Under the pieces are notes generated by a model. It did not search any database and was not told the DNA's origin. It saw nothing but the letters and a program-made list of their open reading frames with translations. Positions 3,591 through 12,068 of a DNA stretch of 32,692 nt are shown piece after piece; position 1 is the first letter of the stretch, and the number at the start of each line of letters is the position of its first letter. The stretch is taken from the IMG/VR virus record IMGVR_UViG_3300048589_000139, positions 1 to 32,692 of that record, one strand, 5' to 3'. The stretch comes from a virus. The position numbers and the translations under genes were made by a program.

Positions 3591-4079
3591 TTATTTATTA
3601 AAGGTTAGTAAAAAATTATCAAACCATTGGAAAAAATCCTCAAGTGTCTTAATGATGATGTAAATCCCTCCCGCTCGTTCAACGTCGGATTGGTAGTCAA
3701 GTTGCGCCTGGCTCTGTCTGTCCCTGCCTATTTTGATTTCAATTTTAACGGAGCGGCCTTGGATTGTTGCGCTTATGTCTGCACTTCCTTTTGTCCCGGT
3801 TCCGGGAATCCATGTTAGGCTCCCAACCGTCCTGCGAATACCGACCACATCGGTAAACTCCTTGCGGTTATCAATCTGCCTCCCGGTCGTGTTGATTCGC
3901 TCGGCCTGATACCCAGTGCACCGAATCACAGCAATCACCGCCTGTGTCAATCCGTTGGCTTTGGTAACTTCGTAGTGCTTTATCGGCATTGTTAAATCAC
4001 GTCTATGATTAGGATGCTTGCGCCATGCCTCATCGGTTAGTATCTGATTCAATCGTTTCTTTGCTTCGCGTGGTGTCAT
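3591..4079 (-). CDS. PD-(D/E)XK nuclease, VRR-NUC-like
   Basis: The protein has 162 aa. The nuclease core is in the C-terminal half: GTKGSAD (D101), then KIEIKIGRDRQSQAQ with E114, K116 and Q124, then a short helix and ERAGGIYII. This G-x-x-D ... E-x-K ... Q-x-x-x-Q order is the PD-(D/E)XK pattern of VRR-NUC domains, which cut structured or flap DNA. The N-terminal about 90 residues are basic and not recognised. It overlaps the upstream gene by ATGA and ends 1 bp before the SSB-like gene. A Holliday-junction or replication-intermediate nuclease role is inferred. Confidence 0.78.
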   Translation of the reverse strand: MTPREAKKRLNQILTDEAWRKHPNHRRDLTMPIKHYEVTKANGLTQAVIAVIRCTGYQAERINTTGRQIDNRKEFTDVVGIRRTVGSLTWIPGTGTKGSADISATIQGRSVKIEIKIGRDRQSQAQLDYQSDVERAGGIYIIIKTLEDFFQWFDNFLLTFNK

Positions 4080-4285
4080 ATCGTTGTTGTTTTAAAAAAG
4101 TGAAATAATCCTTGATCTGTAAAGTCTTTGTATTCTCCCTTTTCATTTTTAAGTGTGTAAATCGTATCAATGCACCTCCCGTTTTCGATGACCGATTGAA
4201 CACCGACAATCTGGTAGGTTTTACCATCTTTGGTTTGGGTTAACCCATCAGGGTAATGCAGTCCGGTTTTGCTTGTGAGGATCAT
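4076..4285 (-). CDS. Small hypothetical protein (69 aa)
   Basis: The 69-aa protein begins MILTSKTGLHYPDGLTQTKD and contains the beta-rich YQIVGVQSVIENGRCIDTIY. It may be a small SH3-like or beta-sheet domain, but I do not recognise a family. It is coupled on both sides by ATGA overlaps, with the 60-aa gene and with the nuclease gene. This supports translation in this frame rather than the competing frame at 4030-4227. Confidence 0.62.
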   Translation of the reverse strand: MILTSKTGLHYPDGLTQTKDGKTYQIVGVQSVIENGRCIDTIYTLKNEKGEYKDFTDQGLFHFFKTTTI

Positions 4286-4464
4286 ATTTTATTAAGTAGC
4301 GATTTTAAGAATTTAATTGATTCACCTGCTGCGTAAATCTCGATTTTGTAAAATTCGCGCTGAGCCCAGTTAAATTTAGAATGGTGCTTCGCCTGTTGTT
4401 CCTTCAAATCCCTCAGATGGTCTAATGATAGTTTTAGCGCTGTCATAGTACGTTGCTTCTTCAT
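4282..4464 (-). CDS. Small helical protein overlapping the 3' end of dnaB
   Basis: This 60-aa basic protein (MKKQRTMTALKLSLDHLRDL) is predicted nearly all helical. Its first about 29 codons lie inside the end of the dnaB-like gene in another frame, an 89-bp overlap. An internal Met (MTALKLS, at 4446) would reduce the overlap only slightly. The stop overlaps the next ATG as ATGA, like most junctions here, and without it 90 bp would be left empty. Function unknown; moderate confidence that it is expressed. Confidence 0.5.
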   Translation of the reverse strand: MKKQRTMTALKLSLDHLRDLKEQQAKHHSKFNWAQREFYKIEIYAAGESIKFLKSLLNKI

Positions 4465-5740
4465 CTTTAAATTTTGTTATGTTCTTAATAAAATTAACCT
4501 TTGTGAGCATTGTCCCACAGTTCCTGCCTTTAGCCATAATCAACTCCGCCATTCCTATGCAACTATTACCGTCCTCAAAAGTTTGCAACCCATATTCCTC
4601 CGGTCTGTAAACAAACAGAACCACGTCTGCTGATTCCTCAATCTGCCCGGAATCCCTAAGCCTGGAAAGTGTCGGCCTTTTATTAGCTCCCTGCTGTGGC
4701 CTATTTAATTGCGATAACACCACAACCGGCTTATTCAATTCCCTTGCAATATCTTTCAATGCGCGGCTTACCTTTCCAACCTCCTCCTCTCTGTTTCGAC
4801 CGTTGCCGGATATTAGTTGCAGGTAGTCAACAATTACAAAATCCAAACTAAACCGGATAAATGCTGATCGTATCAGCGCAATAATGTTATCTATATTACG
4901 GCTGGATGGGTCGGCAATGAATATCCCTGATTCGCTTAATATGTTTTTATAGTGTTCAAATTTAGCAAATTCATCAGGTGTAGCCCATCCCTTAATCACA
5001 TCATTGCGGCTTGTTTCTGACATTGAACAAATCAACCTCATAGCTAACTGTGATTCGGTCATTTCCATGCTTATTATTGCCGCCCGCTTCTGGTCTATAA
5101 GGTACGCATTTTCAGCGATATTAAGGGCAAGTGATGTTTTACCCTGTGATGTTTCCCCTGCTATTATGATAAGGTCGCCATTTTGCAGCCCCTTCATGTG
5201 CCGGTCTATATCTGAAAATCCAGTTTTTACACCTGTCATCCCGCCTTTTCTTATGATTTCAATATCTAAAACAACCTGTTCAACAATTTCGTTTATATTT
5301 CTATACTGGTTCCCGCTCCCCTGTGATAGCTGGAGAAAACCATCAGATATTAACCGCTGCAATTCTTCGGCTGTTTTGTCCTTATTTTGGATTACACCGG
5401 ATGCAATACTTAACAGTGTGTCATGTTTGCTTTGCTCCTCAAGTTCTGTTATTAATTGCTGGATTGGGACGTTGTAATCGCAGTTTATATTAACTTCAAT
5501 GTAATATGATGCTACATTGACGTTTGTATTGCTCAGTATCAGAGCTTCATCAGTAACCTTGTTTTTGGCTATTGAATCTTTAAATATTTTATAAAGTTCT
5601 TTAGCCTGGGTTGAAAAGAATAAGCTTTCATTAATCTGGTCTGCATATTTGAAATAAATACCGTTGTCAGATATTAACCGGCTAATCAAATGACCTTCAT
5701 ACGCCTTTATCAGAATATTTCTATTTTCCATTTTTGGCAT
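4376..5740 (-). CDS. dnaB: Replicative DNA helicase, DnaB family
   Basis: The 454-aa protein is a full-length DnaB-type hexameric helicase. An N-terminal helical domain (about 1-105) is followed by the RecA-like motor. Walker A is GETSQGKTS at 195-203, where GxxGxGKT is usual. SMEMT lies at 224-228, Walker B FVIVDYLQL at 301-309, LSQLNR at 342-347, and LRDSGQIEESAD at 361-372. It unwinds DNA ahead of the fork, loaded by an initiator or loader. Directly upstream (11- or 20-bp overlap, depending on start Met1 or Met4) is the DUF4373 gene that carries the origin-like iterons. No separate helicase loader or primase is visible, so host primase is probably used. Confidence 0.95.
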   Translation of the reverse strand: MPKMENRNILIKAYEGHLISRLISDNGIYFKYADQINESLFFSTQAKELYKIFKDSIAKNKVTDEALILSNTNVNVASYYIEVNINCDYNVPIQQLITELEEQSKHDTLLSIASGVIQNKDKTAEELQRLISDGFLQLSQGSGNQYRNINEIVEQVVLDIEIIRKGGMTGVKTGFSDIDRHMKGLQNGDLIIIAGETSQGKTSLALNIAENAYLIDQKRAAIISMEMTESQLAMRLICSMSETSRNDVIKGWATPDEFAKFEHYKNILSESGIFIADPSSRNIDNIIALIRSAFIRFSLDFVIVDYLQLISGNGRNREEEVGKVSRALKDIARELNKPVVVLSQLNRPQQGANKRPTLSRLRDSGQIEESADVVLFVYRPEEYGLQTFEDGNSCIGMAELIMAKGRNCGTMLTKVNFIKNITKFKDEEATYYDSAKTIIRPSEGFEGTTGEAPF

Positions 5741-6329
5741 AATTTAAGGCATCCTGTTTCCAGTTTGCGGTTAACTTATTTTCGTATTCATTAAAGAAAT
5801 TAATAGGGTTCGAGTTTAGCAGTTTCGCCTCATAGAAATATTTGCGCACCTCCTCAACGGTTGGGGGTACAAATGCCGCAGCATCGCAAGCGGCAATTTG
5901 TGCCTTTTCTTTTTTATTATACTTTACTTTACTTTCCTTTATAGCTAATCGATCGCTTATCGTTCGCTTATCGTTCGTTGATCGATCGCTAATCGAACGC
6001 CTTGCAAGTGATGACTGTCTGGCTTTGTCCGATTTCTCTTGTCTAAGTAAGAGCCTACGGGTAATGCTGTCGGATATTATATATCCTTTTTTTACCTTAA
6101 ATAACTTGAACTCATTTACAACTGCCTTTATTTTTTCGGCATCTGAATTCAACTTAAACGAAATTAATTCATAATCGCATTCAATTTTCCCGTTTTGGTT
6201 ATAAATCATTTCGACAATTCCCCAGTAAATACCATATGATTCTATACCCATTTTTAATATCATTTTGGATATTTTAGGGTCTTGAATTGCGTTGTAATCG
6301 TGCGAAAAATAGAACGTGTCTTTGCTCAT
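5721..6329 (-). CDS. DUF4373 (Lin1244/Lin1753-like) replication initiation protein candidate
   Basis: The 202-aa protein begins MSKDTFYFSHDYNAIQDPKI, the hallmark of the DUF4373 / Lin1244-Lin1753 N-terminal domain (about 1-95, winged-helix-like). These proteins resemble phage initiators of the DnaD/O type and usually sit just before dnaB or dnaC, as here. The middle (about 100-140) is Arg/Ser/Lys-rich and shows a degenerate 11-residue repeat (SISDR, TISDR). That repeat is forced by five 11-bp DNA iterons at 5948-6000. The C-terminus (about 150-202) is helical, like a DnaD tail. The gene is preceded by a structured leader and a leader peptide ending in ATGA with this start. Origin binding is inferred by analogy with lambda O. 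Confidence 0.82.
   Translation of the reverse strand: MSKDTFYFSHDYNAIQDPKISKMILKMGIESYGIYWGIVEMIYNQNGKIECDYELISFKLNSDAEKIKAVVNEFKLFKVKKGYIISDSITRRLLLRQEKSDKARQSSLARRSISDRSTNDKRTISDRLAIKESKVKYNKKEKAQIAACDAAAFVPPTVEEVRKYFYEAKLLNSNPINFFNEYENKLTANWKQDALNYAKNGK
5903..6000 (-). other. Candidate replication origin: five 11-bp iterons plus A+T-rich tract
   Basis: Five copies of ATCGWTCGC-like 9-mers start at 5948, 5959, 5970, 5981 and 5992, exactly 11 bp apart (one helical turn). On the plus strand they read ATCGATCGC, ATCGTTCGC, ATCGTTCGT, ATCGATCGC and ATCGAACGC. Downstream in the gene's reading direction (5903-5947) the DNA is A+T-rich and purine-rich on the minus strand, with four 5-bp repeats (ACTTT three times, then CCTTT) at 5921-5940. 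The period of 11 is not a multiple of 3, so a protein repeat does not explain it. Iterons followed by a melting tract inside an initiator gene next to dnaB is the lambda ori arrangement. Origin function is inferred. Confidence 0.68.
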
Positions 6330-6427
6330 GTCAAAAAGAATTTAGCCAATAAAAAAGCACCCGTTTGAACCCTGCCGACCACAGAACGGATGCTATAATT
6401 ATTGGCGATGTAAGAAACTCTTTTCAT
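6326..6427 (-). CDS. Leader peptide (33 aa) upstream of the initiator gene
   Basis: An ATG at 6427 opens a 33-codon frame beginning MKRVSYIANNYSIRSVVGRV and ending ...LLAKFFLT. Its TGA overlaps the ATG of the DUF4373 gene (ATGA, 6326-6329). The bases around the ATG (ACCGACCAATCATGAAAA on the minus strand) are almost identical to the start of the exonuclease gene at 10967, which supports real initiation. The whole frame lies on a region with strong RNA pairing, including a terminator-like hairpin within the coding sequence. Ribosome movement could therefore decide the fold (inference). I do not recognise the peptide. Confidence 0.5.
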   Translation of the reverse strand: MKRVSYIANNYSIRSVVGRVQTGAFLLAKFFLT

Positions 6428-6461
6428 GATTGGTCGGTTTTAGGTGCCGGGGTTCAATCGG
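6345..6461 (-). promoter_or_regulatory. Structured leader RNA with terminator-like hairpin (attenuator candidate)
   Basis: Read as minus-strand RNA, three 5' blocks, CCGATTGAACCC (6461-6450), GGCACC (6448-6443) and CCGACCA (6437-6431), are complementary to three 3' blocks: GGGTTCAAACGG (6372-6361, one mismatch), GGTGC (6361-6357) and TGGTCGG (6381-6375). The 3' blocks can instead join a local hairpin, GCATCCGT (6393-6386) with ACGGGTGC (6364-6357), followed by TTTTTTATT. This is a rho-independent terminator shape. A further outer stem pairs 6345-6352 with 6399-6406. The C-A mismatch on the plus strand is a permitted G-U on the minus strand, so the fold belongs to minus-strand RNA. Mutually exclusive folds suggest attenuation of the replication operon. 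Confidence 0.58.
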
Positions 6462-6472
6462 CTTTAGAACTA

Positions 6473-6533
6473 CAAATATACAAAACATTTGCCAGATTGA
6501 TACTACTCTGACATTAAAATTAGCTTAAAATTT
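6473..6533 (-). promoter_or_regulatory. Promoter P2 for the replication operon, with A+T upstream element
   Basis: The -7 box TATATTTG lies at 6480-6473 on the minus strand. No TTG occurs at the expected -33 position (about 6501-6503), so the core is weaker than the other promoters. Upstream (6513-6531) is an element of two TTAAAATT octamers 11 bp apart (plus-strand TTAAAATT-AGC-TTAAAATT). It is part of a 25-bp stretch (6509-6533) that matches P4 with one mismatch and sits at the same distance from the -33 position. Transcription would start near 6467, a few bases before the structured leader begins. The element overlaps the end of the 70-aa gene. Confidence 0.5.
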
Positions 6534-10295: not shown

Positions 10296-10357
10296 CAAAG
10301 ATACGACATATCGTAACACAAGTCAAGTGTTTTATGTAATTTTAAGGTAAATTTAAT
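10296..10357 (-). promoter_or_regulatory. Promoter P3 with spacer palindrome and A+T upstream element
   Basis: On the minus strand TTG (10326-10324), a 20-bp spacer and TATCTTTG (10303-10296) match the Bacteroidota consensus. The spacer and the edge of the -7 box contain the inverted repeat TACGA-TATG-TCGTA (10315-10302), a likely operator or promoter-specific signal. It is repeated identically in P4. Starting 14 bp upstream of the first -33 base, 10338-10357 hold a 20-bp A+T element identical to the one at P5 (13768-13787). It drives the 95-aa gene and probably the genes after it. Confidence 0.75.
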
Positions 10358-10358
10358 A

Positions 10359-10967
10359 TCAGATATACTGATTAGTCATTTCGGCTAACTTTGCCTCAAC
10401 TTTGGCAATCTCTGCCCGGCCTTTATCAATATCGGCTTCGAACATTTCATGCGTAAGGATCAGAACAACCAGCGGCCTTTCAAACCGTTCCGGGCAGTAC
10501 GAAACAAAATGAACCTCCTTAACGTCATCCGAAACTGCAAAGTAATTTTTGACCTGTGGCAGATGTTCGGTGTCCACTCCCTCAAAAAATCGCTTCAGGT
10601 GTTTTGCCCCGTTACGGGTGGATTTTATCTCCAATACAATCCCCTGTTCAATGTTAACTCCGTCCGGGCTGGCTAAATGTATCGGGCTAAAGTCGGATAG
10701 AATCGCCCCAACCTCGGCAAACTCAATGCCGGATTGTTTGGCGTAAAGTTCTCTGGCTATTGGCTCGTTGTCAATACCGAATTGCATATCATCACTTACA
10801 AACTCGTCCTCCTGATCCATCCATGGGCTTAGTTGTTCATTAAGCAGGTCGTAAATTAGTGCATTCTTACGCCCGCTGATTACCTGCCCGAATCGGGTGC
10901 CTCCAATTTTGCCGCGTTTGAGTTCGTGCCATTCAGGTGAGCGTTGGATTGTGTGGGATATTTTCAT
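10359..10967 (-). CDS. YqaJ / lambda-Exo type recombination exonuclease
   Basis: The 202-aa protein starts MKISHTIQRSPEWHELKRGK, followed by GGTRFG, MQFGIDNEPIARELY (61-75), SPDG with D102, LEIKS with E113 and K115, and HLPQVKNYF with Q138. This is the YqaJ viral recombinase pattern (PD-(D/E)XK, 5'-3' exonuclease of the Red type). It is coupled by ATGA to the annealing-protein gene upstream. The two together form a Red-like recombination pair, as lambda Exo/Beta do. The end of the protein (about 170-200) is a charged helix. The catalytic residues appear complete. Confidence 0.9.
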   Translation of the reverse strand: MKISHTIQRSPEWHELKRGKIGGTRFGQVISGRKNALIYDLLNEQLSPWMDQEDEFVSDDMQFGIDNEPIARELYAKQSGIEFAEVGAILSDFSPIHLASPDGVNIEQGIVLEIKSTRNGAKHLKRFFEGVDTEHLPQVKNYFAVSDDVKEVHFVSYCPERFERPLVVLILTHEMFEADIDKGRAEIAKVEAKLAEMTNQYI

Positions 10968-11647
10968 GATTGGTTGGTTTTAAGATATTCAATAATTGAG
11001 TTTAATTTACTTACCCCTGCCGTGTCAATCGTCTTGATTAAAGATTGCTTTATTGAAGCACCAATATTTGCCGTTTGCAGCAATTCTTTAGCCTCAATCA
11101 ACATCGCATCAATACCCTCTACTTGCTCACTGATCGGGTTATAATCTGCCACATCATCACGATTAAGGTTACGGCCAAAGATAGCTCCCAAACTTTGGGC
11201 TGCATTTCGGAGCGCCTGGGCTTTCGCAGCCGGGGCGTTCTTACGGATGGCATCTGATTTTATGGTGCTAAAACTCATTTCCTTTTCGCCCTTGTTTAAC
11301 TGGATGGGTATCGCCCCAATTCCTGACCTACGGATCATCATTTTAGCAACCGGATGCACAACTTTGAGTGTCAAAGTGCATACAACGGAGTTGGCTATCA
11401 CCTCAACGGTAAGTCCATCAATCGACCAAAGTCCGGCGTACATTTCGTCCAGTCGTTGTTCAATAACTGCAATAGGGATATAAAGGCTATTCCCTGCATA
11501 AGGATTCGTTTTGATTTCCCGTTTATCCGGGGCTTTATTTAGGAATTTCTGAAACTCCTCAATAGATTTATACTCTGATTTCTGTAACTGGCTATCCTTT
11601 TCGGGCGGCCTCGTTGCTACTTGGTAGGTGGCGTTGGTTTCTGACAT
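10964..11647 (-). CDS. Rad52/Sak-like single-strand annealing protein
   Basis: The 227-aa protein has a core (about 45-165) with YIPIAVIEQRLDEMYAGLWS, strands typical of Rad52-like folds, MIRRSGIGAIPIQ, and the helix KSDAIRKNAPAAKAQALRNA followed by AQSLGAIFGRNL. The 'A..ALR.AA..LG..FGR.L' helix resembles the Rad52/Sak family end. The assignment to Sak rather than RecT or ERF is by pattern. It anneals complementary ssDNA during phage recombination, in concert with the exonuclease coded next. The C-terminal about 50 residues are helical and probably a partner-binding region. Confidence 0.82.
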   Translation of the reverse strand: MSETNATYQVATRPPEKDSQLQKSEYKSIEEFQKFLNKAPDKREIKTNPYAGNSLYIPIAVIEQRLDEMYAGLWSIDGLTVEVIANSVVCTLTLKVVHPVAKMMIRRSGIGAIPIQLNKGEKEMSFSTIKSDAIRKNAPAAKAQALRNAAQSLGAIFGRNLNRDDVADYNPISEQVEGIDAMLIEAKELLQTANIGASIKQSLIKTIDTAGVSKLNSIIEYLKTNQS

Positions 11648-12007: not shown

Positions 12008-12068
12008 CAAAGATACGACATATCGTAACACAAGTCAAGTAAATGACATTAAAATTACCTTAAAATTT
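12008..12068 (-). promoter_or_regulatory. Promoter P4 with spacer palindrome and A+T upstream element
   Basis: On the minus strand TTG (12038-12036), 20 bp and TATCTTTG (12015-12008) form a consensus promoter. TACGA-TATG-TCGTA (12027-12014) overlaps the spacer exactly as in P3. From 12044 to 12068 there is an element with TTAAAATT repeated at an 11-bp interval, nearly identical (24 of 25) to that of P2 at 6509-6533. It drives the small acidic gene, the Cys-rich gene and the recombination pair. It lies just behind the XRE gene. Confidence 0.75.

Follow-up and report, generated by a model that had tools for sequence, protein, structure and literature searches.

The RepY-RepZ leader of IncI-type plasmids such as ColIb-P9, attributed to work by Asano and Mizobuchi in 1998, is said to contain a leader ORF that abuts the initiator start and a 5' hairpin whose loop pairs with a downstream hairpin, thereby controlling the initiator; the contact reportedly activates translation, and an antisense RNA competes with it. 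The countertranscript attenuators of pT181 and pIP501, reportedly set out by Novick in 1989, prematurely terminate the leader transcript of a replication initiator, with a 5' preemptor that pairs with a strand of the terminator stem and an antisense RNA that decides the outcome. A source that cites both papers places the plasmid initiators of ColIb-P9, R1 and pT181 under the control of leader ORFs, pseudoknots and attenuation (PMC10724649). As for phages, the CI RNA of P4 is described as a processed RNA acting in trans in the lysogen, with RNA-RNA pairing in the leader leading to premature termination of the replication genes (PMC4825925). In the case of IsrK of prophage Gifsy-1, a terminated leader acts on its own mRNA (PMC4825925).

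The locus described here lies in a 32.7 kb virus record (hereafter the window, meaning the whole stretch of DNA that was analysed) of a Bacteroidetes-type phage with most genes on the minus strand. We consider it probable that this stretch is the 5' leader RNA of the replication operon and acts in cis as a kissing-loop transcription attenuator, and that it probably represents a self-contained on/off control of phage replication. It resembles the RepY-RepZ leader in its ORF abutting the initiator start and in its 5' hairpin loop, which can pair with a downstream hairpin, but here the downstream hairpin is a predicted terminator. Antisense copies of TANNTTTG, which we take to be the Bacteroidetes -7 consensus, were absent from 22 of 23 leaders of this kind and from the first 150 nt of the genes, in a search that covered this promoter type only. 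Like the pT181/pIP501 attenuators, this locus would terminate transcription prematurely in a leader that precedes a replication initiator. Nevertheless, pairing with a stem strand is not what we find, as the 3' block lies mainly in the loop and, in the window, only its end extends into the 3' arm. Unlike the trans-acting RNA of P4, the loop of the intrinsic terminator itself carries the partner. IsrK has a terminated leader sRNA, a read-through mRNA, an upstream ORF coupled to the next gene and long-range pairing, as is proposed for the locus, but it serves no replication operon, and its pairing involves an ORF beyond the terminator rather than the terminator loop. Relative to known attenuators, the apparently new features are a 5' block whose partner is the terminator's own loop, a hypervariable sequence, and a cassette common to unrelated initiators. 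No description of the element was found in the literature searched, which was open-access only and hence gives weak evidence of novelty.

Layout and folding of the leader in the window

Read along the minus strand from 6480 to 6326, the element consists of TATATTTG, H1, CCGACCA, the leader ATG, a T-tailed hairpin and the initiator ATG (Table 1). An earlier note made from the letters of this DNA had described a structured minus-strand leader RNA with a promoter box, an attenuator-like terminator and a leader ORF ahead of the replication operon, and the present comparisons support that description. The three pairings between 5' and 3' blocks that it listed (12 bp with one mismatch, 7 bp and 5 bp) are all present on the minus strand, as are the -7 box, the T-run hairpin and the 33-codon ORF running through it, the TGA of which shares bases with the initiator's ATG (ATGA, 6329-6326). 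The leader promoter showed no clear -33 element. Pfam names could be given to Lin1244_N, DnaB and YqaJ genes in the window; terminase, portal and tail-type genes are predicted from the ORF list. Other promoter-like sites of the form TTGAC...TANNTTTG occur on the minus strand around 12008, 10296, 13726 and 1782, and the two that end at 12008 and at 10296 share an identical stretch of more than 30 nt, making a repeated promoter.

Table 1. Features of the leader region and of the first operon genes in the window
Feature	Positions	Strand	Remark
-7 box TATATTTG, Bacteroidetes-type promoter	6473-6480	-	start expected a few nt downstream
5' hairpin H1, GCCG[ATTGAACCC]CGGC	6446-6462	-	RNA fold
5' block CCGATTGAACCC, 12 nt	6461-6450	-	partner GGGTTCAAACGG, 6372-6361
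Core 5' block TTGAACCC in H1 loop	6450-6457	-	pairs with GGGTTCAA, 6365-6372, 8 bp
5' block GCACC	6447-6443	-	partner GGTGC, 6361-6357
Second 5' block CCGACCA	6431-6437	-	pairs with 6375-6381; leader ATG 3 nt on
3' blocks TGGTCGG and GGGTTCAA	6381-6375 and 6372-6365	-	both within terminator loop
3' block GGGTTCAAACGG	6372-6361	-	11 of 12 pair with CCGATTGAACCC, one A.A mismatch
Terminator hairpin	6356-6394	-	stem AGCATCCGTT 6394-6385 / AACGGGTGCT 6365-6356; 19-nt loop 6384-6366
U-tract of predicted intrinsic terminator, six T	6351-6356	-	
Outer stem GCCAATAA / TTATTGGC	6406-6399 / 6352-6345	-	flanks T-run, extends terminator stem
Leader ORF, 33 codons, MKRVSYIANNYSIRSVVGRVQTGAFLLAKFFLT	6326-6427	-	spans terminator; stop abuts initiator as ATGA
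Lin1244_N (PF14297, DUF4373) replication initiator	5721-6329	-	first gene after leader; Pfam
DnaB-type replicative helicase (PF03796)	4376-5740	-	next operon gene; Pfam

The 62-nt terminator hairpin (-26.8 kcal/mol and z -6.1 as RNA, with no shuffle equally good) is far beyond chance. As the earlier note had pointed out, its stem has a single imperfect pair, which reads U.G on the minus strand but A.C on the plus; the inner hairpin reaches -16.7 kcal/mol on the former against -10.8 on the latter. In dinucleotide shuffling of the 5' part, 61 of 5000 shuffles (approximately 1 in 80) matched the -28.1 kcal/mol of the long-range duplex and 210 of 5000 reached 8 contiguous bp; the length of the leader ORF was attained by 16% of shuffles. 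The pairing and the ORF of the window appear convincing only once relatives are added.

The 8 bp core and the 7 bp block contact the 19-nt terminator loop. Contact with the 3' arm is limited to the 5 bp block and the ends of the 12 bp block, so that the two folds compete only partly; GCACC/GGTGC would make a pseudoknot. The outer stem GCCAATAA/TTATTGGC can form only once the T-run is transcribed, and in a nested folding model of the window the long-range fold is preferred until this stem is complete, i.e. with the polymerase on the T-run. Of the either/or switch proposed in the earlier note, the part that stands is that the pairing reaches the 3' arm of the terminator in the window. In most families, however, the 3' block sits in the apical loop, and as a loop-borne block permits kissing with the terminator intact, a strict switch is not supported. 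Folding of the full-length RNA of the window also indicates that the start of the leader ORF can pair with a U-rich stretch before the initiator ATG. This might possibly serve as a second lock, although A/U helices are easily fortuitous.

Plan, pairing and covariation in related leaders

Relatives were sought among loci with related initiators from viral contigs and genomes, and the kissing-terminator leaders of Bacteroidetes-type phage replication operons are a class defined in this analysis. The leaders of many other such phages share a common plan and almost no common sequence: TANNTTTG, a 5' hairpin or block within about 10 nt (slightly more in some), a T-tailed hairpin with a loop complementary to that hairpin or block, and an ATG within about 25 nt. 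In nearly all relatives TANNTTTG is found shortly upstream of the 5' hairpin. The 5' block/loop pairs are diverse, e.g. GTCGGAT/ATCCGAC (L022), GTAGGAT/ATCCTAC (L017), GTAAGAG/CTCTTAC (L021), ATAGCAG/CTGCTAT (L034), GTAGTAG/CTACTAC (L125), TATCGAC/GTCGATA (L157), TCAACGACCA/TGGTCGTTGA (L128) and ACAGCGTAACT/AGTTACGCTGT (L137), and in L132 the block extends to 14 bp, including one G.U. The window displays the same elements, with H1 shortly after TATATTTG and contacts of 8 bp (TTGAACCC/GGGTTCAA) and 7 bp (CCGACCA/TGGTCGG) between 5' blocks and loop; no close relative of its own leader was returned, and its class membership rests on architecture.

As RNAduplex energies discriminate poorly against simple shuffles because long interior loops inflate the null, contiguous complementarity in matched and mismatched pairs was used instead. 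All leaders with a -7 box were clustered into 23 groups, and each 5' region was compared with the 3' regions of its own and of the other groups. Complementarity of at least 7 bp was found in 19 of 23 matched clusters as opposed to 11% of mismatched pairs (0 of 100,000 permutations), the clusters being not fully independent since some belong to one larger family, and the L008 match being in a coding region and probably due to chance. Across clusters, 73% of the 3' block is unpaired in the fold of the tail, compared with 45% expected by position. A scan of 2623 -7 boxes over 3.4 Mb, both strands and overlapping loci included, gave 156 hits, of which 74 are distinct and some are evident chance matches in coding DNA, against 14 hits once the 45 nt immediately following each box had been shuffled. 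A sigma-70 plus short-loop terminator scan proved unsuited, the terminator loop here being 19 nt. No such leader was present in the DNA examined for several DUF4373 loci (e.g. L003, L014, L018), and a DNA similarity search against isolated phages gave nothing useful; in Flavobacterium phage 1/32 and Porphyromonas phage005b, the DUF4373-type gene is closely preceded by another gene.

Covariation, which had been suggested as a check, was found in the L192-L247 family, whose initiators are 78-100% identical to the query. It was counted on an equal-length subset (alignment A4), since MAFFT misplaces the H1 loop where its length differs by 2 nt (alignment A3). In A4, 97.8% of cells are paired, and the covariation score of 0.323 exceeds both that of shuffles (0.145) and that of the slid controls, which collapse to at most 0.083. 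H1, the kissing helix and the terminator stem each have pairs changed on both sides; in the kissing helix, pair 27-83 occurs as A-U, G-C and C-G, and pair 28-82 as G-C and A-U. Five kissing helices are found across the family and its near neighbours, and loop pairs differ among phages whose initiators are 93-97% identical. Compensatory changes also distinguish L015/L016 (TTTGACAC/GTGTCAAA) from L060 (TTTGACCA/TGGTCAAA), where ACAC/GTGT becomes ACCA/TGGT in otherwise very similar leaders, and L036 (AGTCGAG/CTCGACT) from L045 (CTGCGAAC/GTTCGCAG), which have the same HNH gene downstream. At the level of sequence comparison, RNA structure and pairing between the 5' block and the terminator loop are thus established as conserved features of the class.

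The same leader is found in front of different first genes. A pattern search for the L192-type leader yielded 50 loci, where it precedes Lin1244_N (e.g. L309), DUF6291 (L303) or DnaD-like loader (L314) genes; for the DUF6291 genes, PHROG also hints at primosomal proteins. Leaders of the L015 type precede Lin1244_N, an O-like gene (L191) or an unknown gene (L189). Elsewhere the leader is one gene upstream and the initiator comes next, the intervening gene being either small (L065, L133, L135, L139) or an HNH gene identified by eye (L036 and L045). From its distribution, the leader belongs to the head of the replication operon, independently of initiator identity.

The data point to a widespread attenuator that Rfam lacks; the probable reason is that its sequence evolves too quickly to be captured by families built on sequence, only the plan being kept. 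As the cassette has moved between unrelated initiators, it would make up a natural set of orthogonal attenuators. Bacteroidota phages are abundant and, to our knowledge, little seems to be known of their replication timing; the leader cassette would offer a model in which control of phage replication at the RNA level can be tested.

Variants were noted among the relatives. Upstream of the DUF4373 genes of L126, L127, L144 and L177 there is another type of leader, GGTTGCTCAGGCATGGGCGTAAAAGG..CACGTT..T-run..AACGTG..AACGTG-ATG, with a short ORF (MGVKGFHVTFP) and a hairpin loop that could pair with either downstream AACGTG copy, the second of which touches the start codon. L021, L030-L032 and L034 have a junction inside the terminator hairpin, GCCC-GAA-GA.../...GA-GGGC, possibly a kink-turn between the base of the terminator and the kissing hairpin. 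Finally, L006 carries a kissing-terminator leader (4035-4150, GTGGACG/CGTCCAC) before an HNH/NUMOD-like gene and apart from its DUF4373 gene, so that the device may extend beyond replication operons.

Alternative readings of the leader

The terminated leader might work in trans as an sRNA, H1 or the terminator loop binding the nascent leader of another genome copy of the same loop type, which would give copy-number or superinfection control like plasmid antisense RNAs or P4 CI RNA. Loop pairs that differ despite nearly identical initiators and leaders swapped between initiators are both expected of an incompatibility-type determinant, and P4 CI RNA and IsrK provide precedents (PMC4825925). On the other hand, the intramolecular contact should beat the intermolecular one, and no second copy of the blocks is seen in the window except the partial repeat at 10962-10984. 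Among related records, which may be fragments, the integrase domain PF00589 was absent in 18, PF00239 in 16, and no ParA or other partition marker was present in 16-18; with no integrase, resolvase or ParA, lysogenic immunity of the P4 CI type is unlikely. We therefore regard control in trans as an unlikely reading of the leader, and it is with similar reserve that one may think of the loop types as RNA-based incompatibility or superinfection groups, set by the released leader whatever initiator lies downstream. As for a ligand-binding riboswitch, the 5' position, the terminator, the kissing loops and the kink-turn-like junction of L021 and L034 would fit, but families share no conserved sequence core and their loops are hypervariable. 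The window and 18 relatives gave no Rfam match at the gathering threshold and nothing credible in E-value searches. The 'riboswitch-type' label of the earlier note, with neither aptamer core nor Rfam match behind it, is thus not retained, and a riboswitch seems very improbable.

The position of the element directly before the initiator gene of the window would suit an operator for the initiator protein, in translational or transcriptional autoregulation. Nevertheless, near-identical leaders precede Lin1244_N, DUF6291 and DnaD-like genes, and an O-like gene is found behind a leader of the L015 type; the maintenance of the operon-head position with unrelated initiators argues against autoregulation, to which we give hardly any weight, although a common phage or host RNA-binding protein might bind the leader. 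Initiator genes often adjoin origins, and inverted repeats covary in DNA as well, as a cruciform or origin hairpin devoid of any RNA role would have them do. Against such a DNA-level element, G.U pairs occur on one strand only, in the window as well as in A4 (pair 73-90, 15 of 20 sequences), the T-run is on the gene strand only, and the structure begins a few nt after the -7 box and ends before the ATG, which makes this reading more improbable still. Least credible of all is an ordinary terminator of the upstream gene combined with chance pairing: the pairing of the window alone, at p of about 0.01, would leave room for it, but a -7 box separates leader and upstream gene in nearly all families, and the matched/mismatched test and the covariation contradict it.

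Proposed mechanism and leader ORF

For the cis-acting attenuator that we favour, transcription would start just after 6473. The 5' hairpin would form first, followed about 90 nt later by the terminator hairpin and U-tract, directly ahead of the initiator gene. Some of the transcripts would stop there and yield a leader RNA some 115-120 nt long, the remainder reaching the initiator and helicase genes, and the contact between 5' block and terminator loop, as a kissing complex or a pseudoknot, would set terminator efficiency. Promoter use and termination are inferred, and so are the direction in which the contact acts, the coupling to ribosomes and the trigger. In the L192 type, with 8-nt loops, kissing over 7-8 bp is compatible with a closed terminator; since it leaves the terminator intact, the contact may stabilise, slow or merely hold it. 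The pairing of the window reaches the 3' arm and is preferred until the outer stem is complete, so that the contact could delay the terminator there and hold or stabilise it elsewhere.

In the window, L128, L132, L137 and L169, and more loosely in L015, the 5' block would also be located at the ribosome entry site of the leader ORF: it ends 0-4 nt before the leader ATG, or 17 nt before it in L015. Where measured, the ORF has its stop no more than about 25 nt away from the start of the initiator (offsets of +4 in the window, -1 in L015, +8 in L020, +4 in L128, +23 in L132 and -4 in L137). This arrangement fits translation of the ORF as an opposing arm that promotes read-through. A ribosome at the leader ORF would keep the 5' block unpaired and open the terminator, and at ATGA it would re-initiate translation of the initiator gene; if the terminator loop captured the entry site, the OFF state would be favoured. 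An attenuator combined with a translationally coupled leader ORF is our best reading of the window. Such coupling is not general, as the compact leaders L192, L021 and L034 lack a long leader ORF. MKRVSYIANNYSIRSVVGRVQTGAFLLAKFFLT has no run of regulatory codons, unlike amino-acid leader-peptide attenuators of the trp type. Among leaders of the L015 type, a Val codon (GTG) becomes a Trp codon (TGG) through the kissing change, which implies that pairing outranks the peptide; judging from sequence, we treat the ORF as a translation device rather than as a protein.

Of note, the start region of the leader ORF (6422-6444, minus strand) has a 23-nt near-repeat at the start of the YqaJ exonuclease gene (10962-10984, minus strand), C[C/T]TAAAACC[G/A]ACCAATCATGAAA, with 21 of 23 positions identical and none such expected by chance. 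The two copies might serve both genes as a common translational operator, or they might stem from a duplication that took place recently.
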